Of a stretch of DNA of 54,349 nt, positions 23,126 to 54,228 are shown piece after piece. Numbering within the stretch: position 1 is the stretch's first letter; every line of letters starts with the position of its first letter. Where the stretch lies: NCBI RefSeq assembly GCF_007997035.1, contig NZ_VOSS01000052.1:1-54349 (forward strand). Direction: 5' to 3'. Below the pieces are notes generated by a model that did not search any database, had not been told where the DNA came from, and saw only the letters and a program-made list of their open reading frames with translations. Source of the DNA: Ralstonia sp. TCR112 (lineage in GTDB: Bacteria; Pseudomonadota; Gammaproteobacteria; Burkholderiales; Burkholderiaceae). The position numbers and the translations under genes were made by a program.

Positions 23126-23180
23126 GGTCTCCTCCATCGCGCTTCTATGAGCGCTCAGGGTCGGGTATCGATGAGCTGGG

Positions 23181-27913: not shown

Positions 27914-27968
27914 GATGACCAGATTCGAAGAACTCAAACCTGAGCGACAGAACGTCGTTTGGGCGTGT

Positions 27969-28002: not shown

Positions 28003-28065
28003 ATCATCAGCCGGACGCGTCATCCGCAGCCCGGCGGTTAAGGGAGGCATGCCATCTCCACAAGG
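27994..28065 (-). promoter_or_regulatory. Fluoride riboswitch (crcB motif)
   Basis: Read on the minus strand, all core elements of the fluoride aptamer are present: stem GGAG/CTCC closing the loop ATGGCATGC, the linker TTAACC, stem GCCGG/CCGGC, then TGATGATGCCTAC. The loop GGCAT can pair with ATGCC to make the pseudoknot, and CTTGT/ACAAG can close the outside. It closely resembles the eriC riboswitch of Pseudomonas syringae as I recall it. It sits 80-150 bases upstream of the CLC-F gene, exactly where a leader riboswitch should be. Fluoride binding is expected to turn on clcF. Confidence 0.95.
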
Positions 28066-28337
28066 TTGCGCATTGTGCCTGAAGGCCGTCGTGGTCACAA
28101 CCGGGCACAATCGCGCACCACCCGGAAAAACGCCCGCCCTGCCATCACACCGGACGGTCTTTTCGGGCTCCGGCGTGCCGCATCATTCCGGTGGCTGGCT
28201 CCCGCTGCCAAGCGGTGCGTTGTCCAATGACATTCACCAGTGTGCGCAATTCACCGTGGATTGTTCAATACGGCTCGATCCGGCATGCTGCATGGATTCA
28301 GCAGCCGTCCACCAGAGACCCCGCGCAGGAGACACGC

Positions 28338-39374: not shown

Positions 39375-40391
39375 ATGAAAAACAACGAAAAAGGAACCGT
39401 CTCTGTCAGCCTCGTCAACGAGGCCGTCACGCGTGCGCGCGCGCATGGCGTGGACATGCAGCCCATCATGGCCGCCGCGGGCATCACGCCGCAGATGCTG
39501 GCGCAGCCGCGCAGCCGCGTGTCATCGGCGCAGTACGGCGCGCTGTGGGCCGGCATTGCGCAGGCCATGGACGACGAGTTCTTCGGGCAGGACGCGCACC
39601 CCATGCGCTGGGGCAGCTTCGTGGCGATGACGCAGGCGGCGCTGACCGCCCGCACGGGCAGGCAGGCGCTGGCCCGGGCCACGGGCTTTCTGCGGCTGGT
39701 GCTGGACGATCTGCATGTGCGCGTTGAAGAAGACGACCAGCGTGTGCGTCTTGTCTTTGTGCACCGCAAGGGCACGCGGGTGCCGCCCATGTTCACCTAC
39801 GCCACGTGGCTCATCATGGTCTACGGCCTGGTGTGCTGGCTCGTGGGGCGGCGTATTCCGTTCATTGCCGCGCGCTTCCGTTGTGCGGCGCCACAGGACG
39901 CGCAGGAATACCGCCTGATGTTCTGCGACGACATGGCGTTCAAGCACGATGCGTCGTACGTCGACCTGTCGCCCGATTTTCTTGACCTGCCGGTCATTCA
40001 GACGGCGGCGTCCAGCAAGACGTTTCTGCGCGATGCGCCGGGCAACTTCATCGTCAAGTACCGCAACCCGGATTCCTTCGCCGCGCGCGTACGCAAGACG
40101 CTGCGCAATCTGCCCGTGGCGAGCTGGCCCGCGTCGGACGCAATGGCGCTCAAGCTGAACGTGGCCGAGGCCACCATGCGGCGGCGCCTGAAGCTGGAGG
40201 GCCACACGTATCAGTCGATCAAGGACGACCTGCGGCGCGACATTGCCATCGGCCATTTGCAGGACACGCGCCGCACCATCGCCGACATTGCCGTCGCCGT
40301 CGGCTTTGCGGAACCGAGCGCCTTTCACCGCGCCTTCCGCAAATGGACGGGCATGCGGCCAACGGACTATCGGCTGGCCAGCGCAGGCTGA
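39375..40391 (+). CDS. AraC-family regulator (arabinose-binding-like N-domain), probable valine-operon activator
   Basis: A 338-residue protein. The N-terminal ~190 residues match the Arabinose_bd-type sensor found in OruR/ArgR-like AraC proteins (GVDMQPIMAAAGITPQMLAQ at the start). The C-terminal helix-turn-helix pair is LNVAEATMRRRLKLEGHTYQ and IAVAVGFAEPSAFHRAFRKW, followed by GMRPTDYR. ATG at 39375 fits the domain start. It is divergent from the valine/isobutyrate operon and so probably activates it, in the role MmsR plays in Pseudomonas. Its 3' end overlaps the convergent LysR gene by 25 bases. Confidence 0.91.
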   Translation: MKNNEKGTVSVSLVNEAVTRARAHGVDMQPIMAAAGITPQMLAQPRSRVSSAQYGALWAGIAQAMDDEFFGQDAHPMRWGSFVAMTQAALTARTGRQALARATGFLRLVLDDLHVRVEEDDQRVRLVFVHRKGTRVPPMFTYATWLIMVYGLVCWLVGRRIPFIAARFRCAAPQDAQEYRLMFCDDMAFKHDASYVDLSPDFLDLPVIQTAASSKTFLRDAPGNFIVKYRNPDSFAARVRKTLRNLPVASWPASDAMALKLNVAEATMRRRLKLEGHTYQSIKDDLRRDIAIGHLQDTRRTIADIAVAVGFAEPSAFHRAFRKWTGMRPTDYRLASAG

Positions 40392-41296
40392 GGCTGCGCG
40401 GCCACGGCGTCCCCGGCCGTGCCGCTGACTTCCCGCAGCGTCTCCAGAAACGCCTTGAGCACCGGCGAGTGATCGTCCACACGATAGTGGACGTACAGCG
40501 GCACAGCAGGCAGCGCCGGCTCCAGCGGGCGGAAGACCACACCGGGCGGCGCCAGGTTCGCCGTGGAGCCCGGCAGCAGCGCCACACCAAAGCCCGCGCT
40601 CACCAGCGCCAACAGCGTCTGCACTTCGGTCACCTGTTGGCGCACAAGCGGCGCAAAGCCAGCCTGGATGCACAGATGCAGCAGGTGATCGGCAAAGCGC
40701 GATCGCTTGGATTCGAACGCAACAAACGGCTCGCCGGCAAAGTCGCCGAGGGCCAGGCTGGTGTGCCCGGCCAGGCGGTGCGTGGCGGGTAACGCCATCA
40801 CGATCGGCTCGTGCTGCAGCAGTTCGCTGCGCACGGCGGGGTCTTCCTGCCCCAGCCGGAAGATGCATGCATCGATGCGGCGCTCCTTGAGCGCGGCCAC
40901 CTGCGCGGCGGGCGTCATCTCCTGCAGGCGCCATTCGACGCCGGGGTAGCGCTCGCGAAACTGGCGTAGCGCTTCGGGCAGCAGCCCCACCATCACTGAG
41001 CTGATCATGCCGATTTCCAACTCGCCCACCTGGCCGCGGCCCGCCTGCCGGGTGAGGTCCAGCGCGCGGTTGAGCTGGGCGAACACCAGCGGCGCCTGCT
41101 CCTTGAGCGTGCGTCCGGCGGCCGTCAGTTCGACGCGGTGGTGACTGCGCACAAACAGCGGCGTGCCGATCTCGTCTTCCAGCAGCCGGATCTGCTGGCT
41201 TAGCGGCGGCTGCGACATGAACAGGCGCGCCGCCGCCCGGCCGAAGTGCAGCTCGTCGGCCAGCACCGAGAAATAACGCAGCAGGCGGATGTCCAC
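40367..41296 (-). CDS. LysR-family regulator at the end of the molybdenum hydroxylase operon
   Basis: A 309-residue protein with helix-turn-helix DIRLLRYFSVLADELHFGRA, FMSQPPLSQQIRLLEDEIGT and LFVRSHHRVELTAAG, and a full effector domain resembling BenM/CatM-type regulators (ELEIGMISSVMVGLLPEALR). The start is GTG at 41296, 8 bases after the stop of the hydroxylase large subunit, so it is probably co-transcribed with it. That position is unusual, since most LysR genes are divergent. The divergent regulator of the cluster (44111) is frameshifted, so this one may be the functional controller. Confidence 0.9.
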   Translation of the reverse strand: MDIRLLRYFSVLADELHFGRAAARLFMSQPPLSQQIRLLEDEIGTPLFVRSHHRVELTAAGRTLKEQAPLVFAQLNRALDLTRQAGRGQVGELEIGMISSVMVGLLPEALRQFRERYPGVEWRLQEMTPAAQVAALKERRIDACIFRLGQEDPAVRSELLQHEPIVMALPATHRLAGHTSLALGDFAGEPFVAFESKRSRFADHLLHLCIQAGFAPLVRQQVTEVQTLLALVSAGFGVALLPGSTANLAPPGVVFRPLEPALPAVPLYVHYRVDDHSPVLKAFLETLREVSGTAGDAVAAQPQPALASR

Positions 41297-41304
41297 GGTA
41301 TGCG

Positions 41305-43512
41305 CTACGCCTTCAGGTCGAAGTTGAACGGTGTCTCGCGCTGGCGCTTGCCGGTCAACCGGAAGATGGCATTGGCAATGGCGGGCGCCACGGGCGGGTT
41401 GGCCAGCTCGCCCACACCACCCGGCTTGTCGCGGTTGCCATCGATGATGACGATGTCGATGGCGGGCATGTCCGACATGCGCATCACGGGGTAGTCGTGG
41501 AAGTTGCTCTGCTGCACCGCGCCGCCCTGGATGTCGATGCGATCGAACAGCGCATGGCCGAGGCCCCACATCAGGCCGCCGTACAGCTGCTCCTCCACGC
41601 CGGTGCGCGAGACCGCCAGGCCAACGTCGGCCACGCAGGTGAGCTTTTGGACGACGACGCGGCCGTCCTTGCGCGCCACCTGCGCCACCACGGCGATGTA
41701 GCTGTCATACGCCTGATGCGTGGCCACGCCCAGTGCGTGGCCGTGCGCCATGTTTCCCCACCCCGCACGCTGTGCGGCGGCGCGCAGCACGTCGACATGC
41801 CGGGGCCGGTCGGCCATGTGAGCGACGCGGAAATCAACCGGATCGCGCCTGGCCGCCACAGCGAGTTCATCGATGAAGCTCTCGGTGGCGAAGACGTTGG
41901 GGATGAAGCTGACGGCGCGGTACCAGCCCGTCGGGATGCCCGTTTCGTGCCGCACCCAGCCGATGTCCATGTGGTTGGCGCGGTATGGAAAATCCCACTT
42001 CGAGAGGGCCTCGGTGGTGCTGTAGTCCATGCGATCGGGGCGATCGAAGTAGCCGGGCTCCCACTGTTCCGGCGATGCGGGCGACACCGCGCGGATGCGC
42101 AGCGCATCGAGCCGGCCTTGCGCATCAAGCGCGCCTTCGAGGCGGTGATACGTGGCGGGGTGGCCGTACAGCGCGCGCATCTCGTCTTCGCGGCTGTTCA
42201 TCAGCTTGACGGGCACGCCCGTCTTTTTGGCAAGGTAGGTGACTTCGAACAGCCAGTATTTGCTCTCGCGCGCGCCAAAGCTGCCGCCCGACACCATCTC
42301 GTGCAGCACCACCTTGTCGCGCAGCACGCCGCAGATCACCTCGGCAGCTTCCATCGCGGTGGATGGCACCTGGATGCCGCCCCAGTATTGAATGGCGCCG
42401 TCGTTGAACCACGCGGTGATGTTGACGGGTTCCAGCGGATTCTGCTGCTTGTACGGCATGCGATACGCCGCGTCGATGCACTTGGCGCCATGGGCCATCG
42501 CCACGTCCGTGTTGCCGGTCTGCACGGTGTGCACCACGCGCGCCTTGCCGCTGGCAAGCCATGCGGCCTGGTGCTGCGCGACATGGCCGCTGTCGAAATC
42601 GGCGAAGGCGCTGTCGTCCCACTCGACCTTGAGGGCCGCGCGGCCCTTGTCGGCGGCCCAGTAGTCGTCGGCCAGCACGGCCACGCCTTCCTGGTTACCG
42701 CCCAGCACATCGACGCGCATCGGGATGGTCATGACCTGGCGCACGCCGCGCACCTTCAACGCCTCGGCGCTGTCGACGCGGCGCACACGTGCACCGGGCA
42801 TGGGCGCACGCTGCACGACTGCCACCAGCATGCCGGGCAACGACACATCGATGCCGTACTGGAACCGGCCCGTCGTCTTGGCCAGCGCATCACGCTTATG
42901 CCTGAGCTTGCCGATGTACTTGAAGTCCGCTGGATTCTTCAACGCCACATTGGCAGGCGCAGGCAGACGGCCCGCCGCATCGGCCAGTTCGCCGTAGGTG
43001 GCCTTGCGGCCGTCGGCATTGCAGATGACGGTGCCGTCTGCGGTGCTGCATGCGGCCACGGGCACGCCCCAGCGTTGCGCCGCCGCGCTGATGAGCATCG
43101 CGCGCGCCGTGGCGCCGGCTTGCCGCAGGCGCGCATATTCGAGCGACACGCTGGTGCTGCCGCCGGTGGAATACACCTTCCAGACCGGATGGATGTAGTC
43201 CTGGAAGAACGGATCTTCCGGCGTGACGACGGCAATGCGCATCGGGTCCACATCCAGCTCTTCGGCCACGCAGGCGGCCAGCGCGGTTTGCGTGCCGGTG
43301 CCGGAATCGTGCTTGTGGACGACGATCTTGACGGTGTTGTCGGCCAACACGCGGACCCACGCATTGGGTTCGAATTCCCCCGCGGCGCCATCCTTGCCGG
43401 CGGCCAGTGCATCGGGCAAGCGAAAGCCGACCGCCAGCCCCGCCGTCAGCAGCGCGCTCTGCTGTAGGAAGCGGCGGCGCGACGGTGCATGCAAGTCACG
43501 CGGCGCGTTCAT
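41305..43512 (-). CDS. Molybdopterin-binding large subunit of a xanthine-dehydrogenase-family hydroxylase (IorB-like)
   Basis: A 735-residue protein. The N-terminus [16 protein letters not shown] is a twin-arginine signal, so the enzyme is probably exported. Mo-cofactor motifs include [10 protein letters not shown] and the late block [18 protein letters not shown], matching isoquinoline 1-oxidoreductase beta-subunit relatives, which hydroxylate N-heteroaromatic rings or oxidise aldehydes. ATG at 43512 overlaps the small-subunit stop by 4 bases. There is no FAD subunit, so electrons probably go to a cytochrome or other carrier. The small subunit has no signal and would travel with this one. 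Confidence 0.92.
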
Positions 43513-43979
43513 GCCTTGCCTCGCTCGTCGGCGGCGGCGCGCTTGATGGCCTGGCGGATGCGCCCGTAGGTGCCGCAGCGGCAGATGTTGCCGGCCATGG
43601 CATTCGTGATGGCCTCGTCGTTGACGGGCGTGCCTGCCGCCAACAAGGCAGCGGCCGACATGATCTGCCCCGATTGGCAGTAGCCGCATTGCGGCACGTC
43701 TTCGGCCACCCAGGCGCGTTGCAGCGGGTGCGTGCCGTCCTTCGACAGGCCTTCGATGGTGGTCACGCTGTGCCCGGCCGCGGCCGACGCCGGCGTGATG
43801 CACGCGCGGATCGGTGCGCCATCCAGATGGACGGTGCAGGCCCCGCAAAAGCCGCCGCCGCAGCCAAACTTGGTGCCGGTCAGTTTCAGCCGATCGCGCA
43901 GTACCCAGAGCAGCGGCATGTCGGCATCGGCGTCATCCAGCGCGTGGGGCGCGCCATTGACCATAATCTCGGTCATCAT
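43509..43979 (-). CDS. [2Fe-2S] small subunit of the molybdenum hydroxylase (IorA-like)
   Basis: A 156-residue protein with two [2Fe-2S] clusters. [15 protein letters not shown] is the plant-ferredoxin-like N-terminal site. [10 protein letters not shown] with [13 protein letters not shown] is the C-terminal helical site. The order and length match small subunits of IorAB and related two-subunit hydroxylases. ATG at 43979 follows GGAGGAGACA; a second ATG is the next codon. It is first in an operon with the large subunit (4-base overlap) and a LysR gene. Confidence 0.95.
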
Positions 43980-44110
43980 TGTCTCCTCCAGAATCGGGCC
44001 GTCTTGTGCGGCCGCGCGTGACTGCAATATGAAGCCGCGTACGGGCGCCCCGCCAGCGACGATTTCTGCCAGCCCGTGTAAGTCGAACTAACAGCTCACC
44101 CACCGCCGCC

Positions 44111-45005
44111 ATGTACAAGCGTTATCCGTCGATCCAGTCGATGCATGCCTTCCTGCAGGCGGCGCGCACCGGCAGCTTTACCAAGGCCGCCCAGCAACTG
44201 GACCTGACGCACAGCGCGATCAGCCAGCAGATCCGTTCGCTGGAGGAGTTCATCGGCCAGCCGCTGTTTGTGCGCGAGGCGGGCGGCATCGTGCTGACCG
44301 ATGCGGGCCAGCTCTTTGCCAGCATGCTGACCGACGGCTTCGGGCAGGTGGACCGGGCGCTGTCTTCGGTGCGCAACCGGCACGTGCCGCAAACGCTCAT
44401 CGTCGATGTCGACAGCGAACTGGCGCAGGGCTGGCTCAATGCGAGGCTGCCGCAATTGCTCGCGGCCCTGCCCGGCTACCAGGTGATGTTCCTGTCCACC
44501 ACGCGCGGCGAGCGGCCCTCGTTCGAACGCGTGGACGTTTCGCTGCGCTACGGCTATGGCGAATGGGATGACTGCGAGATGGCGCTCGTCTGTGGCGACC
44601 ACGTCACCGCTGTGGCGGCGCCCGCGCTGCTGACGCGGCATGGCGTGCAGGCGCCGCTGGCGCCGTCGGCTGCGATGACGCTGCCGCTGCTGGGCTACAC
44701 GCGGCGCTCGTGGATTCCGTGGCTGGACGCCGCCGCGCTGGAACCGCTCGAGCCCGCCGTGGTGGCCGCGTTCGACAACGCCGCCAACATGGTCGCGGCC
44801 GCCGCAAGCTGGCGTCGGCGTGGCGCTGGTGCGTGGGCTGCTGGCGGCCGATGCACTGCAACACGGGCGCCTCGTGCGGCTGACCGACGTGGCCATCCCG
44901 GCGCACTACAACCTGTATGCCGTCTGGCAGCGCGGCCATGGCGAGCGCGCACAGGCGGTGGTGAACGCAGTGCAGCAACTGGCGCGCGACACGCTCGGCG
45001 CCTGA
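44111..45005 (+). pseudogene. LysR-family regulator (GcvA-like), broken by a one-base insertion
   Basis: The first frame from ATG 44111 encodes a good LysR helix-turn-helix (SMHAFLQAARTGSFTKAAQQ, LTHSAISQQIRSLEEFIGQP) and most of the effector domain, up to NMVAAAAS. At 44810 an extra T changes the frame. Dropping it restores GVGVALVRGLLAADALQHGR and continues to a natural end at TGA 45003-45005 (about 297 residues). Unrepaired, translation runs into an Arg-rich tail to 45091. It lies between the molybdenum hydroxylase operon and the amidohydrolase operon, divergent from the first, so it was the obvious regulator of both. Mutation or sequencing error cannot be distinguished. Confidence 0.9.
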
Positions 45006-45028
45006 GCGCCCGCCGCCTGCCGACCGAC

Positions 45029-45044
45029 TTGCCGATATCGGCAA
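45029..45044. promoter_or_regulatory. Perfect 16-base palindrome TTGCCGATATCGGCAA
   Basis: Lies in the 240-base gap between the broken LysR gene (end 45005) and the first amidohydrolase (start 45246). Both halves match exactly with no spacer. A second inverted repeat, GGCCGG-CCC-CCGGCC, follows at 45073-45087. The 16-mer is a strong operator candidate for the downstream operon. Its contiguous symmetry is not the T-N11-A LysR pattern, so another type of dimeric regulator may bind. Confidence 0.5.
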
Positions 45045-45245
45045 CGTATCAAGACCGCCGCCAAATAGTATTGGCCGGCCCCCGGCCCTGACTCCGATAC
45101 TGCGCCCCAAGCAGCACGCATCCGGCATCACGCGATCCGGCGAGGGGAAGGCACACGCCTAGCAAAGAGCGCCGCGCTGCAGGACGTGCCTGCCCTCACC
45201 GGGAAGCCATCACGCGCTTCCTCCCAGTCATCAGGAGATCCAACG

Positions 45246-46157
45246 ATGATCATCGACATCAGCTGCTACCCCACCGACCTGGTGGACCTCGCGTGGTGGC
45301 ACGACGGCGACCCCTTTACCGGCGAGCGCCTGCTCGAAATGATGGACGGCCCGTACATGATCAACGGCAAGCCGCGCCGTATCGACAAGGCCTTCATCCA
45401 GCCGCCGCAGGGCAACACCATCTACACGTGGACGGACGGCGAGCTTTCGGGCCGCGAGTCCATCGACGCCTACATGGCGTACACGCTCAAGATGGTGCAG
45501 ACCTACCCCGACCGCTTCATCGGGTGCTTCGTCTACAACCCGCGCTGCGGCGTGCAGAACGGCGTGGAGGCCATCGAGCGCTACGTCAAGGAGCACGGCT
45601 TCAAGATGGTCCAGATGCAGGCCAACATGCACGCCTACCGTCCGGACCGCGCGCTGGACTGGGTGATGCCCGCATTCGAGAAATGTGCCGAGCTGGGCGT
45701 GCCCGTCAAGCTGCATACGGGCGACGGCCCCTACAGCATTCCGTCGGAATGGATTCCGATGATCAAGCGCTTCCCGAATGTCGATTTCATCATGGCGCAC
45801 TTCGGCGTGCAGACCGGCGGCGTCTACGTGTTCGAGCCGATGCAGTGGGCGATGGAGCTGCCCAATGTGTATTGCGAATCGGGCTGGTGCCTGCAGTCGC
45901 GCATCGTCGAATTTGCCAAGGTGCTGCCCAAGCACAAGATCCTGTTCGGCACCGACACGCCGCCCAACGAGCCCGGCATGTGGCTGCGTCTGCTGGAAGT
46001 CTTGTGCATGGACCCGCCGCAGGGCCTGAACCTCGATGAAGACACGCTCGAGGATTACCTGGGCAACAACATCGCCCGCATGATCGGCCTGGAGCCGACC
46101 CGTCCGCCCAAGACCGTGGCCGAAGCCGAAGCGCAGCTCGCGCTGGCTGCCGCCTGA
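45246..46157 (+). CDS. ACMSD-type amidohydrolase paralogue lacking the N-terminal HxH metal motif
   Basis: A 303-residue amidohydrolase_2 family protein, clearly paralogous to the next gene: MMDGPYMINGKPRRID, YRPDRALDW, HTGDGPY and PPNEPGMWLR are shared. In this copy the first-strand motif reads DISCYPT where the sister has DTHLHPT, so both His of HxH are gone (Ser6, Tyr8). Later metal-site residues remain (His in KLHTGDGPY and MAHFG, Asp in FGTDTPP). It may be a pseudo-enzyme partner in a heteromer, or use a different metal arrangement. AGGAG precedes ATG 45246. It is first in a long operon; a gap of 29 bases leads to its sister. Confidence 0.9.
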   Translation: MIIDISCYPTDLVDLAWWHDGDPFTGERLLEMMDGPYMINGKPRRIDKAFIQPPQGNTIYTWTDGELSGRESIDAYMAYTLKMVQTYPDRFIGCFVYNPRCGVQNGVEAIERYVKEHGFKMVQMQANMHAYRPDRALDWVMPAFEKCAELGVPVKLHTGDGPYSIPSEWIPMIKRFPNVDFIMAHFGVQTGGVYVFEPMQWAMELPNVYCESGWCLQSRIVEFAKVLPKHKILFGTDTPPNEPGMWLRLLEVLCMDPPQGLNLDEDTLEDYLGNNIARMIGLEPTRPPKTVAEAEAQLALAAA

Positions 46158-46186
46158 GCCACCGCAGACCGCACGGAGCGCAACAC

Positions 46187-47110
46187 ATGATTATCGATAC
46201 CCATCTGCACCCGACCAACCTCGTCGACGAGGCCTGGCGCCACACCGGCACGCCGTTCAATGGCGAACGCATGATCCAGCTGATGGACGGCCCGTACATG
46301 ATCAACGGCAAGCCGCGCCGCATCGACATGGGCTTCATCCAGCCGCCGCCGGGCAACACCGGCTACCGGGACGGCAACCGCCGCGGCCGCGAGGGCATTC
46401 GCGACTACATGGCGTACATCGCCGAACTCACGCAGAAGTACCCGGACCGCTTCATCGGCAACTTCACCTACAACCCGCGCTGGGGCCCGGAGAACGGCGC
46501 GGCGGAGCTGGAATTCCACATCAAGGAATACGGCTTCAAGATGGTCAAGCTGCACGCCAACATGCACGGCTACCGGCCCGATCGCGCGCTCGACTGGCTG
46601 CGCCCCGCGATGAAGGTCTGCGCCAAGTACAACATCGTGGTGCTGATCCACACCGGCGACGGCCCGTACACCATCCCGACGATGTTCTATCCGATCATCC
46701 GCGAGTTCCCGATGGTGAACTTCATCATCGGACACTTCGGCATCCAGACCGGCGGCAACTACTCGTTCGAAGCGTTCTGGATGGCGATGGATACGCCCAA
46801 CGTGTACTGCGAATCCGGCTGGTGCTTCCAGTCGCGCATCGTCGAATTTGCGAAGCAGTTGCCGCGCGACAAGATCGTCTTCGGGACCGATTCGCCGCCC
46901 AACGAGCCCGGCATGTGGCTGCGCGAGCTGGAGGTGCTGTGCTCGGCGCCGCCGCAGGGGCTGGGCATCGATGAGGAGCACCTCGAAGACTATCTGGGCA
47001 ACAACATTGCGCGACTGGTCGGCATCGAACCCACCAAGCCGCCCAAGGACCTGGCCGAGGCGGAGCTTCGCCTGAAGTCGACCTACGTCCAGACAGCAGA
47101 AGCGGCCTGA
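46187..47110 (+). CDS. ACMSD-type amidohydrolase (decarboxylase/hydrolase) with complete metal motif
   Basis: A 307-residue TIM-barrel metalloenzyme of the amidohydrolase_2 family, which includes ACMSD, gamma-resorcylate and 5-carboxyvanillate decarboxylases and isoorotate decarboxylase. Metal ligands are all visible: HLH at residues 6-8, His in LIHTGDGPY, His in GHFGIQTGG and Asp in FGTDSPPNEPGMW. Non-oxidative decarboxylation or hydrolysis of a ring compound is likely; the substrate is unknown. It is second in the operon, preceded by its HxH-less paralogue and followed by ubiD. GGAG lies upstream of the start. Confidence 0.91.
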   Translation: MIIDTHLHPTNLVDEAWRHTGTPFNGERMIQLMDGPYMINGKPRRIDMGFIQPPPGNTGYRDGNRRGREGIRDYMAYIAELTQKYPDRFIGNFTYNPRWGPENGAAELEFHIKEYGFKMVKLHANMHGYRPDRALDWLRPAMKVCAKYNIVVLIHTGDGPYTIPTMFYPIIREFPMVNFIIGHFGIQTGGNYSFEAFWMAMDTPNVYCESGWCFQSRIVEFAKQLPRDKIVFGTDSPPNEPGMWLRELEVLCSAPPQGLGIDEEHLEDYLGNNIARLVGIEPTKPPKDLAEAELRLKSTYVQTAEAA

Positions 47111-47121
47111 GCGCCGATCCC

Positions 47122-47156
47122 GCGGGCGCCGTGCCTCTGTGGTGTTCGGCGCCCGC
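47122..47156 (+). other. Intercistronic hairpin between the amidohydrolase pair and ubiD
   Basis: GCGGGCGCC (47122-47130) and GGCGCCCGC (47148-47156) form a perfect 9-base stem with a 17-base loop, 18 bases before the ubiD ATG. No T-tract follows, so it is not a classical terminator. It may stabilise the upstream mRNA segment or set expression differences within the operon. Confidence 0.5.
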
Positions 47157-47173
47157 CTCTAGCGAGGTGTGCC

Positions 47174-48565
47174 ATGAGCATGACCCGGCTTGGCGAAGGC
47201 CAGGATTTCCACGTCTTCGCCAATCTCTATCGCGAGCTGTATCCCGAAGATGTGCTGACGGTGCGCCACGGCATCTCCGCCGACCAGGACGTCACCGCCG
47301 TCATCGATCAGCTCGCTGCGCGGAACCAGACCCCCATGCTGGTCTGCGAGCAGGTCAGCGGCCTGCAGGTGCCGCTGGTCACCAACGTCTTTGCCTCGCG
47401 GTCACGGCTGGCACGGTTGTTCGACGTGTTGCCGCATCAATTGCACGATGCCTTCCAGGCGCGCGCCAATGCGCCCATCGCACCGCGTGTCGTCTCGCAC
47501 GGCCCCATCACCGACGAGGTGATCGAAGGCGACGCGGTCGACGTTGCGCTGCTGCCGATGATCAAGCACTTCGAGAGCGACCGCGCACCCTACATCACCA
47601 ACGCCATCATCGTGGCCGAGGACCCGGTGACGGGCGTGGCCAACATGAGCTATCACCGCTCGATGCGCCACGCACGCAACGCACTGGCGACGAGCCTGCA
47701 CTCGCGCGGCCACCTGTGGCGCATGCTGCAGACCGCGCGCGAACGCGGCGACGTGCTACGCGTGGCGATGGTGGTAGGCGCGCATCCGCTGTTCATGCTG
47801 GCCGCCGCCGCCCGCCTGCCCTTTGGCACTGACGAACGCGCCGTGGCGGGTGGCCTGCTCGGCGCGCCGCTCGATATCGTCCGCACGCCGCGCTACGGCA
47901 TCGGCGTGCCGGCGGCAGCGGAGTTCGTACTCGAAGGCACCATCGACCCCGCCGCCTATGCAGAAGAAGGCCCGTTCGGTGAATTCACCGGCTATTCGTC
48001 CGACCGCTCCACCAACAATGTGCTGCGCATCGATGCCCTGATGCGGCGGCGCGATGCGTGGCTGGTCGACGTGGTGGGCGGCCCGTACGCCGAGCACCTG
48101 ACGCTGGCCCGCCTGCCGCGCGAAGCCGAGATGAGCGAAAAGCTCAAGGCGCGCTTCCCATCGGTGACGGCGCTGCACTATCCGAACTCGGGCACGCACT
48201 TCCATTGCTACGTGGCGCTCAACCCGACGCGCGACGGCGAGGCGCGGCAGGTCATGCTGGCGCTGCTCGGCTGGGATCCGTACCTCAAGACTGTGATTGC
48301 CGTGGATTCCGATATCGACCTGCAGCAGGACGAGCAGGTGCTGTGGGCCATGGCCACGCACTTCCAGCCGCACCAGGATGTGTTCATGGTCGATGGCCTG
48401 CCCGGCAGCCCGCTCGATCCGTCATCGTCCGTGCACGGCACGACTTCGCGCATGGGCATCGACGCCACGCGCGGTGCCGGCTTCGAAGGCATCCGCGCAC
48501 GCATCGATCCGCAGGCGATTGCCCGCGCGGGCGACATCCTGCGCCAGGCCGGAGTGCGTCCATGA
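47174..48565 (+). CDS. UbiD-family prenyl-FMN-dependent decarboxylase
   Basis: A 463-residue UbiD enzyme for reversible (de)carboxylation of aromatic, heteroaromatic or alpha,beta-unsaturated acids. The cofactor-site block NMSYHRSMRHARNAL supplies the Arg, and EEGPFGEFTGYSS supplies the Glu pair of the catalytic E-R-E set. GVPAAAEFVLEG and HGTTSRMGIDATR are also typical. It is not ubiquinone-pathway UbiD by context: it is coupled to its own UbiX (ATGA overlap) inside a catabolic operon. The closest functional groups I can think of are heteroaromatic-acid decarboxylases (HmfF, pyrrole-2-carboxylate) and hydroxybenzoate decarboxylases; the substrate is not determined. Confidence 0.93.
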   Translation: MSMTRLGEGQDFHVFANLYRELYPEDVLTVRHGISADQDVTAVIDQLAARNQTPMLVCEQVSGLQVPLVTNVFASRSRLARLFDVLPHQLHDAFQARANAPIAPRVVSHGPITDEVIEGDAVDVALLPMIKHFESDRAPYITNAIIVAEDPVTGVANMSYHRSMRHARNALATSLHSRGHLWRMLQTARERGDVLRVAMVVGAHPLFMLAAAARLPFGTDERAVAGGLLGAPLDIVRTPRYGIGVPAAAEFVLEGTIDPAAYAEEGPFGEFTGYSSDRSTNNVLRIDALMRRRDAWLVDVVGGPYAEHLTLARLPREAEMSEKLKARFPSVTALHYPNSGTHFHCYVALNPTRDGEARQVMLALLGWDPYLKTVIAVDSDIDLQQDEQVLWAMATHFQPHQDVFMVDGLPGSPLDPSSSVHGTTSRMGIDATRGAGFEGIRARIDPQAIARAGDILRQAGVRP

Positions 48566-49164
48566 GCGCGCGCCACCCTCGCGCTCCCGCCCGGCCGCGC
48601 ATGGTGGTCGGCATCAGCGGTGCATCGGGCTTCGTCTACGGCGTGCGGCTGCTCGAACTGCTGCGCGCGCTCGATGTGGAAACGCACCTCGTCGTCACAC
48701 GTTCTGCGCTGCTGACGATGGCGCACGAAACGCCGTTCAAGCTCGCCGACGTGATGGATCGCGCTACGCATTACCACCGCGCGGACGACATGGCCGCCGG
48801 CATTGCCAGCGGCTCGTTTCGCGCGCTGGGCATGATCGTGGCGCCGTGCTCGATGAAGTCTCTGGCGGAAATTGCCACGGGCGTTTCGTCGACGCTGCTG
48901 ACACGCGCGGCAGACGTCACGCTCAAGGAGCGCCGTCCGCTCGTACTGATGGCGCGCGAGACGCCATTCACGCTCGCACACCTGCGCAACATGCAGGCCG
49001 TCACGGAGATGGGCGCCATCGTCGCGCCGCCCGTACCGGCCTTCTATGCGCGCCCGAATACGTTGGACGACATGATCGACCACACCCTCGGCCGCGTGCT
49101 CGACCTGTTCGGGCTCGATGCCGGCACCGCCCTGCGCTGGGGCGAAGAAGCCTTACCTGCCTGA
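48562..49164 (+). CDS. ubiX: UbiX-family flavin prenyltransferase
   Basis: A 200-residue flavoprotein that attaches dimethylallyl phosphate to FMN to make the prenyl-FMN cofactor of UbiD enzymes. GISGASGFVYGVRLLELL is the N-terminal FMN/phosphate loop. APCSMKSLAEIATGVSSTLL and RRPLVLMARETPFTLAHLRN are the family's active-site segments, including the conserved Arg-Glu-Thr-Pro. The start overlaps the ubiD stop by 4 bases, so the decarboxylase and its cofactor maker are produced together. Confidence 0.95.
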   Translation: MSARHPRAPARPRMVVGISGASGFVYGVRLLELLRALDVETHLVVTRSALLTMAHETPFKLADVMDRATHYHRADDMAAGIASGSFRALGMIVAPCSMKSLAEIATGVSSTLLTRAADVTLKERRPLVLMARETPFTLAHLRNMQAVTEMGAIVAPPVPAFYARPNTLDDMIDHTLGRVLDLFGLDAGTALRWGEEALPA

Positions 49165-49199
49165 GTCCGTACCCCACCCACGCTCGACAAGGAGACAAC

Positions 49200-50303
49200 A
49201 TGAAACCCCAAGCCACGGCCCACGCCACGCTTCCCGGCCCGAACACCAAGATTCCGGTCACCATCCTCACCGGCTTTCTCGGCGCCGGCAAAACCACGCT
49301 GCTGAACTTCATCCTGCGCGAAAACCACGGCCGCAAGATCGCCGTGATCGAAAACGAGTTTGGTGAAGTCGGCATCGACGGCGGCCTCGTCATGGCCTCG
49401 GAAAACGAAGAGATCTACGAGATGGTCAACGGCTGCGTGTGCTGCACGGCCGAGGTGCGCGAAGACCTCGTGCGCATCGTGCGCCAGCTCGTCGCACGGC
49501 CCGAACGGCTGGACCACATCCTGGTGGAAACCAGCGGCCTGGCCGATCCGTATCCGGTGGCGCAGTCGTTCTTCATCGACGACCCGATTGCCGAACATGT
49601 CGAGCTTGACGCCATCCTCACCATGGTCGACGCCAAGCACATCGCCGCGCATCTGGACGACCTGCACCTGGACGGTGTCGACAACCAGGCCGTCGACCAG
49701 ATCGTCTGCGCGGACCGCATCGTCATCAACAAGGTGGACCTTGTGGGCCGCGACGATATCGACGCGCTGCGCGGGCGCATCCGCGGCTTGAACGCCACGG
49801 CCGACATCGTCACCTCCAGCTATGCCGAGGTCGATCTGAACAAGATCATCGGTGTCGGCGCGTTCGAGGCGACGCAGAAGCTGCTGGAGATCGGCGCAGA
49901 CGCCGGCCACGGCGAGCATGACCACGAACATGAACATGTTCACGCCGACGCTCACGAGCATGACCATGAGCACGAACATGAGCATGAGCACGACCACCAG
50001 CACGATCCGAGCGTCTCATCAGTGGGTTTTGACGTGCCGGCCGACGTGGATCTCGTGCGTTTCCATACGTGGATCGACGCCCTGCGCACCGAGCAGGCGG
50101 AAACGCTGTTCCGCATGAAGGGCATCCTGGCCGTGAAGGGCCAGGCGCAGCGCTACGTGCTGCAGGGCGTGCACAGCCTCATCGACTTTCGCGCAACGCA
50201 GCCGTGGGGCAGCGAAGCGCGCAGCAGCAAGATCGTCTTCATCGGCCGCGACCTCGATCGTGCGGCCCTGCAGGACGGCTTCAACGCGTGTCTGGCGGCG
50301 TGA
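49200..50303 (+). CDS. COG0523 (CobW/ZNG1-like) GTPase metallochaperone with His-rich insert
   Basis: A 367-residue G3E GTPase. Walker A GFLGAGKTT at residues 25-33, the ENEFGEVGID switch, metal motif CVCC at residues 79-82 (CxCC) and NKVD are all present. A His/Asp/Glu-rich segment of about 35 residues lies at nucleotides 49909-50010, between the GTPase and C-terminal CobW_C domains, suited to store Zn or another divalent metal. Such proteins load metal into target enzymes. In this operon the likely clients are the metal-dependent amidohydrolases. AAGGAGACAAC precedes the ATG. Confidence 0.94.
   Translation: MKPQATAHATLPGPNTKIPVTILTGFLGAGKTTLLNFILRENHGRKIAVIENEFGEVGIDGGLVMASENEEIYEMVNGCVCCTAEVREDLVRIVRQLVARPERLDHILVETSGLADPYPVAQSFFIDDPIAEHVELDAILTMVDAKHIAAHLDDLHLDGVDNQAVDQIVCADRIVINKVDLVGRDDIDALRGRIRGLNATADIVTSSYAEVDLNKIIGVGAFEATQKLLEIGADAGHGEHDHEHEHVHADAHEHDHEHEHEHEHDHQHDPSVSSVGFDVPADVDLVRFHTWIDALRTEQAETLFRMKGILAVKGQAQRYVLQGVHSLIDFRATQPWGSEARSSKIVFIGRDLDRAALQDGFNACLAA
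49909..50010 (+). repeat. His-codon-rich low-complexity repeat inside the COG0523 gene
   Basis: Imperfect repeats of CAT/CAC with GAG/GAC/GAA codons (units like GAGCATGACCAC) encode alternating His and acidic residues. The repeat keeps frame and appears to be protein-driven, not a mobile or CRISPR repeat. It is prone to length change between strains. Confidence 0.8.
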
Positions 50304-50381
50304 GCATGCCATGACATGACATCCCCTGACCCGAGGGCGGCTCCTGGCACGCCCCGGGCATGACAACGATAGGAGACAACC

Positions 50382-51725
50382 ATGACAACAGCCGTACACC
50401 CGGTCGACCAGGTTCTGTCGACGCGACAGATGTTGACGTTGGGCTTGCAGCATATGGCGGTGTCGTACATCGGCGCCATCGCGGTACCGATGATCATCGC
50501 GTCGGCGCTCAAGATGTCGCAGGCGGACACCATTGTGCTCATCAGCACCACGTTGTTCTGCTCGGGCATCGCCACGCTGTTACAGACCATCGGGTTCTGG
50601 AAGTTCGGGGTGCGGTTGCCGATCCTGCAGGGGGTGGCGTTCAGCAGCGTGGGGCCGGTGATCGCCATCGGCACCAACCCTGCCGTAGGTTTCGCGGGCG
50701 TGTGCGGTGCGGTCATTGCGGCCGGACTGTTTACGCTGCTCGCCGCACCGCTGGTGGGGCGGCTGCGGCGATTTTTTCCACCGGTGGTCACGGGCTGCAT
50801 CGTGACCGTCATCGGCCTGCAGCTCTTTCCCGTCGCCTATGACTGGGTGGGCGGCGGACGCAACGCTGCCAACTTCGGTGCACCATCGTTTCTGCTGGTG
50901 GCCGCGGTGGTGGTCGCCACCATCCTCCTCATCAACCGCTTCGGCAGCCCGCTGCTGCGCAACCTCGCGGTGCTGGTGGGCATGATCGTCGGCACGTTGC
51001 TGGGCTGCGCCATGGGTATGGGCGACTTTCACGGCGTGGCAGACGCGCCGTGGGTCACGCTCCCGGTGCCGTTCCACTTTGGCGTGCCCGTGTTCGCCGT
51101 GGTCCCCGCGCTGACCATGATCGTGGTGATGATCGTGCAGATGGTGGAGTCGATGGGCTTGTTCCTGGCCATCGGCGACATCGTCGAAAAGCCGATCGAA
51201 GAAGAGGAAGCCATCAACGGCCTGCGCGCCAACGGGCTGGCCAGCGCCATCGCCGGCATGTTCGCCGCATTCCCCTTCATCGCCTTCATGGAAAACGTCG
51301 GGCTGGTGGTACTCACCGGCGTGCGCAGCCGCTGGGTGGTGGCTGTGAGCGGCGTGCTGATGTGCCTCGTGGCGCTGGCGCCCAAGGCGGGCGCCGTGAT
51401 TGCGGCCACGCCGACAGCCGCATTGGGCGGCGCGGGCATCGCCATGTTTGGCGTGGTGGCCGCGGCAGGCATCCAGACGCTGGCGCGCGTCGACTACGAG
51501 CACAACCGCTACAACGTGCTCATCGTCGGTTTCACGATTGCCGCCGCGCTGGTACCGGTGCTGGCGCCGACGTTGTTCAAGCAGTTGCCCGACTGGTCGC
51601 AACCGTTCCTGCACAGCGGCGTGGTCATCGCCTGCCTGGTGTCGGTGGCGCTGAACCTGCTGCTCAACGGTACCGAAGAAGCGCACGTGCCCGCGTCGGT
51701 CGTGCGCACGGCGGGCCGTGCCTGA
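50382..51725 (+). CDS. NCS2-family nucleobase:cation symporter (xanthine/uracil permease type)
   Basis: A 447-residue carrier with about 12-14 membrane segments. The first helix has the family's Gln-His motif (LGLQHMAVSY) and the NAT signature ENVGLVVLTG fits [QEP]-N-x-G-x4-T-[RKG]. Acidic residues expected in helix 8 occur around QMVESMGLFLAIGD. NCS2 proteins import uracil, xanthine, uric acid and related purines. Here it sits between the metallochaperone and a deaminase, so it likely imports the pathway's substrate, suggesting a nucleobase-like ring. AGGAGACAACC precedes the ATG. Confidence 0.93.
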   Translation: MTTAVHPVDQVLSTRQMLTLGLQHMAVSYIGAIAVPMIIASALKMSQADTIVLISTTLFCSGIATLLQTIGFWKFGVRLPILQGVAFSSVGPVIAIGTNPAVGFAGVCGAVIAAGLFTLLAAPLVGRLRRFFPPVVTGCIVTVIGLQLFPVAYDWVGGGRNAANFGAPSFLLVAAVVVATILLINRFGSPLLRNLAVLVGMIVGTLLGCAMGMGDFHGVADAPWVTLPVPFHFGVPVFAVVPALTMIVVMIVQMVESMGLFLAIGDIVEKPIEEEEAINGLRANGLASAIAGMFAAFPFIAFMENVGLVVLTGVRSRWVVAVSGVLMCLVALAPKAGAVIAATPTAALGGAGIAMFGVVAAAGIQTLARVDYEHNRYNVLIVGFTIAAALVPVLAPTLFKQLPDWSQPFLHSGVVIACLVSVALNLLLNGTEEAHVPASVVRTAGRA

Positions 51726-51732
51726 TTTTCCA

Positions 51733-53133
51733 ATGGACCTCTCCATGCACAACACGCCTCAAGACATCCTCATCCGCCGCCCCTTGGCCGTCATGACCGG
51801 CCTGCGTGGTGACGCAGCACGCGCCGGTGCGGTCGACATCCGCATCGCCGGCGGCCGCATCGCCGAGATGGGCCCCGACCTCATGCCCCGCCCCGGCGAG
51901 CGCGTCATCGACGCCAGCGACTGCATCGTCTACCCGGGCTGGATCAACACGCACCACCATCTGTTCCAGAACCTGCTCAAGGCCGTGCCGGAAGGCATGA
52001 ACCAGGACCTGCAAGGGTGGCTCGCCAGCGTGCCGTATCCGCGCCTGCCGCTTTTCACACCGGAACTGATGCGCACGGCTGCGCGGCTGGGTATGGCGGA
52101 ACTGCTGCTGTCGGGCGCCACCACCTGCGCCGACCACCACTACCTCTATCACGCAGGCGGCGGCACCGAATCGGGCGACATGCTGTTCGATGTCGCCGAC
52201 GAATTCGGCATGCGCTTCGTGCTCTGCCGCGGCGGCGCCATCGAGTCGGCCAGCAGCCACCCGGGCTTCTCCAAGACGGCGCTGCAGCCTGAAACGCTCG
52301 ACCAGATGCTGGCCGACATCGAGCGGCTCAAACACCGCTATCACGACGACGCACCCGACGCGATGCGCCGCGTGGTGGTGGCGCCGACCACACCGACGTT
52401 CTCGTTGCCGCCGGCATTGCTGGTCGAGCTGGCACGTGCCGCGCGCGCGATGCACCTGCGCATGCATACGCATCTGTCGGAGACCGACAACTACGTGCGC
52501 TTCTGCCGTGAGAAATACAACTGCCTGCCCGTTGAGTTCGTGGCCGAGCACGAGTGGCTGGGCCCGGACGTCTGGTTTGCGCACCTCGTGCACCTGCAGC
52601 CGTCGGAGATCCGCATGCTGGCGCAGACGGGCAGCGGCATCGCGCACTGCCCGGTCAGCAACAGCCGGCTGGGCAGCGGCATCGCACCGGTGCCGCAACT
52701 GGCGGCGGCCGGCGTGCCGGTGTCATTGGGCGTGGACGGCGTGGCGTCCAACGAATCGGGCAGCATGACCGGCGAGGTCAACACCGCGTGGCTCATCCAC
52801 CGTGCCACGCAAGGTGCCGGCGCCACCACCGCCGAAGACGTCATTCACTGGGCGACCGCAGGCGGTGCGCGCGTGCTCGGCTTGAGTGAGGTCGGCACGC
52901 TGCAGGTCGGGCAAGCCGCCGATCTGGTGCTCTACGACATCAACCACCCGCGCTTCTACGGCTTCCACGACCCCGCGCTCGCGCCCGTGGTCGCCGGGGA
53001 GCCCATCGCCGTGCGCACCAGCATCATCGGCGGGCGCGTTGTGGTGGACGAAGGTGTGGTGTGCGGCCTGGATGTGGCGAGCATCCGCGCCGAGGCCAGC
53101 CGGGGCGTGGCCGACCTGATGGCGTGTGCTTGA
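51733..53133 (+). CDS. 8-oxoguanine deaminase-like amidohydrolase (TRZ/ATZ subgroup)
   Basis: A 466-residue metal-dependent amidohydrolase. INTHHHLFQN supplies HxH, MRMHTHLSETD the next His, LVHL a further His and LGVDGVASNESGSM the catalytic Asp. The lengthy C-terminal composite-sandwich end (GLSEVGTLQVGQAADLVLYD) is typical. The family contains 8-oxoguanine, isoxanthopterin, guanine and hydroxyatrazine deaminases, which act on amino groups of N-heterocycles. ATG at 51733 is chosen; ATG at 51745 is a good alternative and ribosome-binding signals are weak for both. It is 7 bases after the permease stop, so translation may be coupled. Confidence 0.9.
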   Translation: MDLSMHNTPQDILIRRPLAVMTGLRGDAARAGAVDIRIAGGRIAEMGPDLMPRPGERVIDASDCIVYPGWINTHHHLFQNLLKAVPEGMNQDLQGWLASVPYPRLPLFTPELMRTAARLGMAELLLSGATTCADHHYLYHAGGGTESGDMLFDVADEFGMRFVLCRGGAIESASSHPGFSKTALQPETLDQMLADIERLKHRYHDDAPDAMRRVVVAPTTPTFSLPPALLVELARAARAMHLRMHTHLSETDNYVRFCREKYNCLPVEFVAEHEWLGPDVWFAHLVHLQPSEIRMLAQTGSGIAHCPVSNSRLGSGIAPVPQLAAAGVPVSLGVDGVASNESGSMTGEVNTAWLIHRATQGAGATTAEDVIHWATAGGARVLGLSEVGTLQVGQAADLVLYDINHPRFYGFHDPALAPVVAGEPIAVRTSIIGGRVVVDEGVVCGLDVASIRAEASRGVADLMACA

Positions 53134-53137
53134 CGGT

Positions 53138-53650
53138 TCAGACGTCCAGCCGCAGCGCCATGTGTTCTTCGTCGTAGAAACGGTCACCGACACGCATGGC
53201 GCGGCGCTCGACGCCGAAGGTTTCGAAACCCGCGTTGCGATACAGCGTTTGCGCACGCGGGTTCTCGGCATTGACACACAGGTGGATCTGCAACACGCGC
53301 GCCGCACGTGCATGCGCAATGGCGGCGTCGAGCAGACGGCCTGCAATACCGCCACGCCGATGTGCCGGGTCAACAAACACGCCCCAGAGCACGGCCTTGT
53401 GGGCAACCTGCGCCAGCGGCTCGCGACGCAGCCCGGCAATGCCGATCAGCTCCGGCCCGGCAAATGCACCGAACACGATCTGATACTCGGTCGCCCGGAT
53501 GCGGTTGCGGGTTTCCTCCAGCGTGCGGCCCGACTCTTCATCGTGCGTCGGCCAGATGGCGGTCGGCGAATCCTCAATGGCCTTCAGGCGGAGCACCTTG
53601 AACGCTGCCGCATCCTCATCGATCAACGGGCGGATGGCGATGTCGCTCAT
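53138..53650 (-). CDS. GNAT-family N-acetyltransferase
   Basis: A 170-residue acetyltransferase. LWGVFVDPAHRRGGIAGRLL contains the acetyl-CoA-binding V-x-x-x-x-R-x-x-G-x-G/A motif, and NPRAQTLYRNAGFETFG is the usual C-terminal segment. The substrate (protein or small molecule amine) cannot be assigned. Its start overlaps the stop of the flavin-reductase-like gene by 4 bases (ATGA), so the two form a unit; it is convergent with the deaminase gene (4-base gap) and not part of the catabolic operon. Confidence 0.9.
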   Translation of the reverse strand: MSDIAIRPLIDEDAAAFKVLRLKAIEDSPTAIWPTHDEESGRTLEETRNRIRATEYQIVFGAFAGPELIGIAGLRREPLAQVAHKAVLWGVFVDPAHRRGGIAGRLLDAAIAHARAARVLQIHLCVNAENPRAQTLYRNAGFETFGVERRAMRVGDRFYDEEHMALRLDV

Positions 53651-54228
53651 GGCTGTTTGGGCTCCACGGTAAATGCATCGCCGGTTTCGAAGAACGCGCC
53701 GCCCGCCAGGTAATGCACGGTCTTGCTGCCCGCATCGGTAAAGTGCCAGCGGCCGTTGCTGAACAGCGCTGGGTCCGCCCAGGCGGCGGTCACTTCAGCA
53801 ATGAAGAGGTCGTAGCGCTTCTCGTTGTGCGGTTCCGGAATGACGCGGCATTCCAGCCACCCTGCGCAGCCTTCGACGAGCGGCACGTCGATCGTGCGGG
53901 CTGGCACCGTGGCCAGGCCGAGCGCATCGAACTTGTCGCCGTCGCGGCCAGACAGCGTGCCCACCGTGAGCGTGGTCTCGGCAATTGCACGGGTGGGAAT
54001 GTTGAGCGCAAACACGCCCGAGGCTTCGATCAGCTCGCGCGTCAGTGTGCGGCTGTCGACCACGACCAGCACTTTGGGCGGGTCAAAGTCGAGCGGCATC
54101 GCCCAGGCTGCTGCCATGACGTTGCGCACGCCGTTATGGGCGCTGGTGACCAGCGTGGTTGGGCCGTGGTTCAGCAGGCGGTAGGACTTTGCGAGTTCGA
54201 CTGGGGCGAGTGTGATGGGGTTGGGCAT
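53647..54228 (-). CDS. Flavin reductase-like (DIM6/NTAB) FMN-binding protein
   Basis: A 193-residue split-barrel flavoprotein. RNVMAAAWAMPLDFDPPKVL and SGVFALNIPTRAIAE are typical of the flavin-reductase-like fold, and ECRVIPEPHNEKRYDLFIAE is the later conserved part. Members reduce flavins for partner monooxygenases or act as oxidoreductases on their own. ATG at 54228 is chosen where homology begins; in-frame ATGs near 54261 would add a short Pro-rich segment. The 121 bases beyond it to the window end contain no gene I can support. Confidence 0.87.
   Translation of the reverse strand: MPNPITLAPVELAKSYRLLNHGPTTLVTSAHNGVRNVMAAAWAMPLDFDPPKVLVVVDSRTLTRELIEASGVFALNIPTRAIAETTLTVGTLSGRDGDKFDALGLATVPARTIDVPLVEGCAGWLECRVIPEPHNEKRYDLFIAEVTAAWADPALFSNGRWHFTDAGSKTVHYLAGGAFFETGDAFTVEPKQP

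Follow-up and report, generated by a model that had tools for sequence, protein, structure and literature searches.

A cluster of eleven genes at positions 40367–53133 of NZ_VOSS01000052.1, a 54,349-nucleotide contig of Ralstonia sp. TCR112 (the whole contig is called the window here), is shared by soil bacteria and plant symbionts that are only distant relatives, and most likely breaks down pterins, a class of ring compounds that includes pigments and vitamins, to xanthine. The genes for a biochemically known degradation route may therefore come from this island. The cluster encodes a two-subunit molybdenum hydroxylase (IorA- and IorB-like), two LysR regulators, two small amidohydrolases of the ACMSD superfamily (designated ahA and ahB), a UbiD-family decarboxylase and its UbiX partner, a COG0523 protein, an NCS2 permease and a COG0402 deaminase. 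An earlier note on this DNA had regarded the region as a catabolic island for an N-heteroaromatic, nucleobase-like compound. Pfam and NCBIfam scores placed all of the genes it named within the same coordinates, and the conserved, co-directional gene set supports its general view well; taken as a whole, the earlier interpretation is partly supported.

Conservation and Boundaries of the Gene Cluster

A scan of one genome per species gave 233 relatives of ahB, of which the best 80 were kept, a sample that leans to close relatives; four plasmid loci were added to give a set of 84 loci. Both ahB and UbiD were present in all 84, ahA and UbiX in 83, the COG0523 gene in 79, LysR1 in 78, NCS2 in 77, the deaminase in 75, IorA in 73, and IorB and LysR2 in 71 each. 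All eleven genes occurred in the order of the window in 44 loci, and 20 further loci were complete with LysR1 placed across LysR2 (one more locus of this type had an extra LysR gene). The seven core genes were all co-directional in 73 of the 84 loci, a grouping that exceeds chance, and the gene order of the window recurred in Pseudomonas, Marinobacterium, Caballeronia and Paraburkholderia. P. umsongensis DSM 16611 (L071) is one environmental Pseudomonas that carries the cluster. Thus, the neighborhood search proposed in the earlier note found the genes kept together in related genomes. Among the 80 genome loci, the deaminase was detected in 74, and in the other six the contig stops after UbiX or NCS2; IorB was absent from ten.

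The cluster is rare, being found in 4 of 398 genomes of a phylum sample and 5 of 399 of an order sample (the window's own genome is in both counts). In a plasmid collection, 91 records contained ahA matches at 1e-80, at 181 places in total, a number consistent with ahA and ahB almost always occurring as a pair. Phage-borne cargo was considered and rejected, as no ahA match was found at 1e-20 in the phages collection.

Within Ralstonia, ahB was found in 9 of 16 genomes, including that of the window. In five of the seven genomes that lack it, the AraC gene of the left flank and the GNAT gene of the right flank are immediate neighbors, their matches being separated by 11 bp (G001, G006, G008, and G009) or 174 bp (G005). 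The exceptions are G004, in which they are 862 bp apart, and G007, in which they lie on different contigs. At two such empty sites (L115 and L116), genes for an acyl-CoA dehydrogenase, AraC, GNAT and a flavin reductase are consecutive. A GNAT match at the cut-off was not found in the island-bearing genomes G012 and G013, though AraC was present. Since the flanks adjoin in most ahB-less genomes, the boundaries drawn in the earlier note coincide with a real unit of gain or loss, and the cluster is a discrete island. In contrast to ahB, xdhB was above the cut-off in all 16 Ralstonia genomes. Such a universal xdhB beside a patchy ahB is the pattern that an island delivering its product to a core route should show, and the presence of xanthine dehydrogenase throughout means that a xanthine product would be usable.

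The Deaminase Resembles the Isoxanthopterin Type

By sequence comparison, the window deaminase is nearer to the isoxanthopterin type, represented by 2paj, than to the 8-oxoguanine type. Its best match among solved chains was 2paj (469.7 bits, 51% identity), followed by 3hpa (309.1 bits, 41% identity) and 7ww2 (306.3 bits), which is named 8-oxoguanine deaminase. We take 2paj to be the isoxanthopterin deaminase (the Sargasso Sea enzyme) of Hall et al. 2010, and 3hpa to be an 8-oxoguanine deaminase. In the enzyme of Hall et al. 2010, Gln and Tyr reportedly contact O4, and two Thr residues contact N5 and O7. The corresponding motifs are NTHHHLFQ, VPY and APTT in the window protein and NTHHHLFQ, TPY and APTT in 2paj. 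The Gln and Tyr are also present in 3hpa, and only the Thr pair discriminates the isoxanthopterin from the 8-oxoguanine type: APTT is common to 2paj and all 75 cluster deaminases, whereas 3hpa and a paralog in the window's genome read APCS. This paralog is 79% identical to 3hpa and approximately 9 kb from xdhB. A separate paralog, 41–43% identical to the window enzyme, was found in 16 of 16 Ralstonia genomes. In trees of 17 and 29 sequences, the paralog (L112) groups with 3hpa (support 1.000), and the window deaminase lies outside.

The window deaminase passes NF009059/PRK12393, "amidohydrolase family protein" (768.2 bits, cut-off 543), and is below the cut-off of the NCBIfam 8-oxoguanine deaminase model NF006055 (438.6 vs. 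532). Given this, the nearer relationship to 2paj, the separate 3hpa-type paralog and APTT in place of APCS, an 8-oxoguanine deaminase identity, toward which the earlier note had leaned, was rejected. Sargasso Sea amidohydrolases related to this enzyme deaminate isoxanthopterin and pterin-6-carboxylate, according to the accessible portion of PMC5270733.

The window protein and 2paj share the COG0402 fold family as well as these motifs. In other Burkholderiales, 2paj-like genes often lie beside ABC-transporter-like genes (8 of the 11 loci fetched with such a gene and neither ahA nor ahB in the stretch; L110, L111, L118, L119, and L122–L125) and not beside UbiD and the amidohydrolase pair. In four of these (L118, L119, L122, and L123), the conserved Tyr is replaced by Val and APTT by AITT, and another substrate is possible. 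In the Burkholderiales sample, a deaminase relative (1e-130) was found in 5 of 5 genomes with ahB and 12 of 394 others (Fisher's exact test, P-value = 7.5e-08; 1.9e-05 by genus). We give this association little weight, because the window's genome is among the five, two of them have only an unlinked type without the conserved Tyr at this cut-off, and shared ancestry was uncontrolled.

An Amidohydrolase Pair Adjacent to UbiD

Both small amidohydrolases match Amidohydro_2 (134 and 161.7 bits), in agreement with the earlier note, which had counted two ACMSD-type enzymes; however, the HxH metal motif is present only in ahB (THLHPT in 84 of 84 loci). In ahA, which is 65% identical to ahB, it is replaced by SCYPT in 83 of 83 loci, and this distinguishes ahA from the superfamily that includes ACMSD, isoorotate decarboxylase, LigW, LigJ and 2-pyrone-4,6-dicarboxylate hydrolase. 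A profile search of the pair against PDB sequences gave nothing at 1e-05, and fold comparison was used instead. It assigned the ACMSD-superfamily fold to ahB and, in spite of the missing HxH, to ahA. Irrespective of the substrate, it is noteworthy that ahA has lost HxH and yet is retained next to ahB.

UbiD (TIGR00148, 276 bits, cut-off 244.85) contains the GPFGE and SYHR motifs in all 84 loci, which we take to be those of the catalytic region of the family, and UbiX matches TIGR00421 (233.5 bits, cut-off 108.9). The best solved relatives of UbiD are 6h6v/6h6x and 7p9q, presumably furandicarboxylate decarboxylases and the indole-3-carboxylate enzyme AnInD, respectively, all acting on five-membered heteroaromatic acids. 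The island brings its own UbiX, but its UbiD is remote from these enzymes (210.4 and 146.2 bits) and its substrate is putative. The genes ahA, ahB and UbiD are adjacent in every proteobacterial class examined (alpha, beta and gamma), including two loci with no deaminase in the stretch (L114 and L129), which suggests that the product of ahA/ahB feeds UbiD.

It is conceivable, though with the chances leaning against it, that a heteromeric amidohydrolase composed of ahA and ahB contracts the ring, with the HxH-less subunit completing the active site of the metal-bearing one. Such an enzyme would convert a pyrazinedione to an imidazole carboxylate, and UbiD would decarboxylate the resulting purine-8-carboxylate. 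If so, ring contraction and purine-8-carboxylate decarboxylation would be reactions to which no gene family has been assigned, and pterin breakdown would be connected to that of purines through the island.

The permease belongs to the xanthine permease subfamily PbuX (TIGR03173, 471.2 bits, cut-off 414.15). The most His-rich 45-residue stretch of the COG0523 protein (cobW PF02492, 182.3 bits) contains 6 to 19 His (79 loci); the protein is below the cut-offs of ZigA (NF038288, 173.6 vs. 600) and CobW and is thus COG0523 in the wide sense only. In 70 of 71 loci, a loose twin-arginine pattern is located where the IorB match starts or no more than 60 codons upstream. No such pattern was seen at the starts of the four xanthine dehydrogenase-like large subunits examined from other clusters, and the side of the membrane on which hydroxylation takes place may therefore differ between the two lineages. 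Xanthine oxidase converts lumazine to violapterin, as stated in the available part of PMC9966888, so the reaction class fits the proposed hydroxylation.

Proposed Conversion of Pteridines to Xanthine

In the 1960s, McNutt reportedly described in Alcaligenes a route from isoxanthopterin via trihydroxypteridine, tetrahydroxypteridine and xanthine-8-carboxylate to xanthine. Tetrahydroxypteridine cycloisomerase is classified as EC 5.5.1.3; to our knowledge this is an orphan activity, and we know of no sequence or assigned gene for the middle enzymes of the route. For each step of the route, the island offers a candidate gene, although the Alcaligenes route is known from biochemistry and, with no sequence for its middle enzymes, allows no gene-level comparison. 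The earlier note could match the gene set to no described pathway. By inference, the set matches this route.

Some pteridine is probably the substrate of the island. More tentatively, with chances that we put slightly short of even, the island as a whole would encode proteins that take up a pterin-type compound and convert it to xanthine as follows. First, the molybdenum hydroxylase would add ring oxygens (at C6 and/or C7) to the pteridine, maybe in the periplasm here; in many alphaproteobacterial clusters a three-subunit xanthine dehydrogenase-type enzyme would take this step. The NCS2 permease would import the hydroxylated product, and the COG0402 deaminase would strip the 2-amino group, converting isoxanthopterin or leucopterin to the corresponding lumazine. 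Next, ahA/ahB, metallated with the help of the COG0523 protein, would act on 2,4,6,7-tetrahydroxypteridine by hydrolyzing its amide on the pyrazine side, after which the open form would re-close as the imidazole of xanthine-8-carboxylate (the reaction of EC 5.5.1.3). Tetrahydroxypteridine and xanthine-8-carboxylate are isomers and have equal mass ([M-H]- approximately 195.02). UbiD, using prenyl-FMN from UbiX, would then convert xanthine-8-carboxylate to xanthine, which would enter the resident xanthine dehydrogenase route.

Pterins are widespread as folate breakdown products and insect pigments, according to the accessible portions of PMC9513972 and PMC11121863. The former also covers folate and pterin deamination by Variovorax sp. 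F1 and by Arad3529, a pterin deaminase from Agrobacterium. These systems resemble the island in having a cyclic-amidine deaminase that acts on the pterin ring, but in the available text they are described up to deaminated folate and pteroate, with no ring opening, UbiD or ahA/ahB. The portion of PMC5788505 at hand only cites the Arad3529 paper. In the open-licence literature, the only paper found to name the route compounds was a urine metabolomics study (PMC5941619, available in part), and no paper was found in which genes are assigned to degradation of the pteridine ring proper, which is weak evidence. The protein families are known; within the same limits, the gene combination, the HxH-less ahA and the proposed reactions of ahA/ahB and UbiD were not met.

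If the proposal is true, an orphan EC number would gain candidate genes from the island, UbiD a new substrate class and the ACMSD superfamily a new reaction, and ahA together with ahB could serve as a genomic marker of pteridine use. The proposal would also account for a cluster on a plasmid of Sinorhizobium meliloti (L103) that carries generic family names only and that is present on pSymB of strain 1021 as well (L013). In the part of PMC12542648 available, SMb20132, a locus tag presumed to lie in this region, is named only as a probable dehydrogenase (EC 1.17.1.4).

Variation among Alphaproteobacterial and Mixed Clusters

Nine alphaproteobacterial loci were fetched (L013, L015, L016, L103–L107, and L109, from Sinorhizobium, Ensifer, Shinella, Ponticoccus, Paracoccus, and Ochrobactrum). 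All nine retain ahA, ahB, UbiD, UbiX and the COG0523 gene, and eight have an NCS2 permease. In all nine, a cytosine-deaminase-like protein replaces the window-type deaminase (in L013 its best NCBIfam match is PRK07583, 248.1 bits, below the cut-off of 403). In six (L013, L016, L103, L104, L105, and L107), a three-subunit xanthine dehydrogenase-like enzyme replaces IorAB; the large subunit of L013 best matches XdhA at 667.5 bits, below the cut-off of 780. Mixed clusters were also observed: the xanthine dehydrogenase-like enzyme occurs alongside the window-type deaminase in L121 (genome G363) and alongside a 2paj-like deaminase in L090. The genome of L113 (G017), a betaproteobacterial cluster of the xanthine dehydrogenase type, has a window-type deaminase and an NCS2 gene on another contig (L120). 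Judging from these families, most clusters seem to want ring hydroxylation and deamination, with the protein family that fills each role varying.

Additional genes were seen next to the deaminase in some loci. In L014, it is followed by an arylmalonate-decarboxylase/Asp-Glu-racemase-like gene (17775–18563), for which the proposed scheme has no role, and several loci of Caballeronia and Paraburkholderia have open reading frames of similar size at this place. In Shinella and Ensifer, an aldolase-annotated gene lies beside the cytosine-deaminase-like gene (L105, 6275–7075; L107, 6175–6975), and that of L105 has a class II aldolase/adducin domain.

Evidence against the Proposal and Alternative Explanations

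The candidate families for deamination, hydroxylation, ring contraction and decarboxylation are co-clustered and conserved, but several observations weigh against a complete pteridine-to-xanthine route. Some clusters have no adjacent deaminase or molybdenum hydroxylase. IorAB is not seen in 4 of the 80 genome loci (L024, L043, L082, and L091) despite the presence of upstream DNA. In the stretches fetched, no molybdenum hydroxylase was found in L015, L106 or L109, no NCS2 or BMP transporter in Ponticoccus L104, no deaminase in the betaproteobacterial clusters L108, L113, L114 and L129, and no UbiX in L114 and L129. In the genomes of the last two (G026 and G575), the only deaminase match at 1e-130 is a divergent, unlinked protein without the conserved Tyr, a type that also occurs in genomes lacking ahB, and the alphaproteobacterial-type deaminase was not found in them at 1e-40. 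In addition, 2paj and the window deaminase form neighboring groups in the trees and not one clade, and ahA/ahB has no characterized close relative, the best PDB sequence match of ahB being weak (5.6e-06). The extra aldolase- or arylmalonate-decarboxylase-like gene of some clusters is unused by the scheme; such leftover genes are accessory, in some clusters.

The same genes could be arranged in another order. UbiD might act first and convert pterin-6-carboxylate to pterin, the hydroxylase and deaminase would then yield violapterin or a related oxo-lumazine, and ahA/ahB would open the ring by hydrolysis, without contraction, to a diaminouracil and a C2 acid. UbiD enzymes take heteroaromatic acids, and relatives of the deaminase accept pterin-6-carboxylate as well as isoxanthopterin (available portion of PMC5270733). 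However, the adjacency of ahA, ahB and UbiD described above suggests that UbiD acts after ahA/ahB, and no recurring gene for diaminouracil breakdown was seen among flanking genes, which were not annotated systematically. We consider this order unlikely.

Another explanation, similarly unlikely in our judgment, is that enzymes of the same types act on a non-pteridine amino N-heterocycle, such as a carboxylated 7-deazaguanine or an aminopyrimidine acid. The cytosine-deaminase-like enzyme of the alphaproteobacterial clusters would suit such a compound and the transporter types are generic, but the deaminase of all 75 loci that have it carries the 2paj motif. Agrobacterium does have a pterin deaminase, Arad3529 (PMC9513972, available in part), which the alphaproteobacterial cluster enzymes might resemble.

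The earlier note had suggested two unrelated decarboxylase families in one operon. In such a scheme, ahB would decarboxylate in the metal-dependent manner of ACMSD and isoorotate decarboxylase, UbiD would be another decarboxylase, and the substrate would be a heterocycle that loses two carboxylates. Most of the named fold matches of ahB, among the matches listed, are indeed decarboxylases, and ahB could be one too. However, the list also holds 2-pyrone-4,6-dicarboxylate hydrolase (4i6k and 2ffi) and the hydratase LigJ at nearly the same Z, and a second decarboxylation is unnecessary if the deaminase points to pteridines. With HxH kept in one of the two ACMSD-type proteins and ahB perhaps a ring-opening enzyme, the presence of two decarboxylase families is not established, and we regard this scheme as distinctly improbable.

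Salvage of oxidized purines by an 8-oxoguanine or urate-type pathway is very improbable. In its favor are a family-level resemblance of the COG0402 deaminase to 8-oxoguanine deaminase (41% to 3hpa) and a permease of xanthine permease type. However, the deaminase falls below the 8-oxoguanine deaminase cut-off and has APTT instead of APCS, all 16 Ralstonia genomes have a separate paralog (in the window's genome the 3hpa-like one near xdhB), and such a route needs no UbiD.

Gene Layout and Other Features of the Window

The coordinates of the eleven genes are given in table 1. LysR1, IorB and IorA are read on the minus strand, LysR2 and the seven genes from ahA to the deaminase on the plus strand. 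With trimmed starts, the gaps within the seven-gene run are 29 bp (ahA-ahB), 63 bp (ahB-UbiD), an overlap of 4 bp (UbiD-UbiX), 32 bp (UbiX-COG0523), 78 bp (COG0523-NCS2) and 25 bp (NCS2-deaminase). As 49200 (COG0523) and 51733 or 51745 (deaminase) are plausible starts, the true gaps are at most 78 bp, the value that the earlier note had given for this co-directional run. A consensus scan for sigma-70-like promoters in 43900–53700 found none against 1.5 expected, a scan that says little for this organism.

Table 1. Genes of the Cluster with Positions in the Window
Gene	Position	Strand	Basis and proposed role
LysR1 regulator	40367..41287	-	Best NCBIfam match PRK09986, 289.9 bits (cut-off 290); precise start uncertain
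IorB-like molybdopterin-binding large subunit of two-subunit molybdenum hydroxylase	41305..43512	-	Pfam MoCoBD_1, MoCoBD_2; twin-arginine-like N-terminus (SRRRFLQ)
IorA-like [2Fe-2S] small subunit	43509..43979	-	Pfam Fer2, Fer2_2
LysR2, GcvA-like, frameshifted in this assembly	44111..45091	+	LysR domain; frame compared with L017
ahA, ACMSD-fold Amidohydro_2 protein without HxH (DISCYPT)	45246..46157	+	Amidohydro_2; would pair with ahB as a subunit
ahB, ACMSD-fold Amidohydro_2 protein with intact HxH (DTHLHPT)	46187..47110	+	Amidohydro_2; proposed ring-opening/contracting subunit
UbiD-family prenyl-FMN decarboxylase	47174..48565	+	TIGR00148; proposed xanthine-8-carboxylate decarboxylase
UbiX flavin prenyltransferase	48562..49164	+	TIGR00421; UbiD cofactor supply
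COG0523 GTPase with His-rich stretch	49200..50303	+	cobW, CobW_C; probable metal delivery to metal-dependent hydrolases
NCS2 permease, PbuX (xanthine permease) subfamily	50382..51725	+	TIGR03173; proposed pteridine importer
COG0402 deaminase, nearer isoxanthopterin type	51733..53133 (start 51733 or 51745)	+	2paj 469.7 bits vs. 7ww2 306.3

Two LysR genes had been reported in the earlier note, and both do contain LysR domains, but the last part of LysR2 is out of frame relative to its intact relative in L017. The xdhB match of the same genome is also split in two (contig C168), and the frameshift may thus be a sequencing or indel error.

Elsewhere in the window, a fluoride riboswitch (27991–28068, minus strand; 49.1 bits, gathering score 34) is located upstream of a CLC-type channel gene (26657–27937, minus strand), which is an ordinary fluoride-export arrangement. 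A further Amidohydro_2 protein, which either has an extended N-terminus or comes from an open reading frame that is too long, is encoded near genes for an MFS transporter and a 2-hydroxyacid dehydrogenase (19424–20872 and 21758–23137, both on the minus strand); this region is possibly a second, unrelated catabolic operon.

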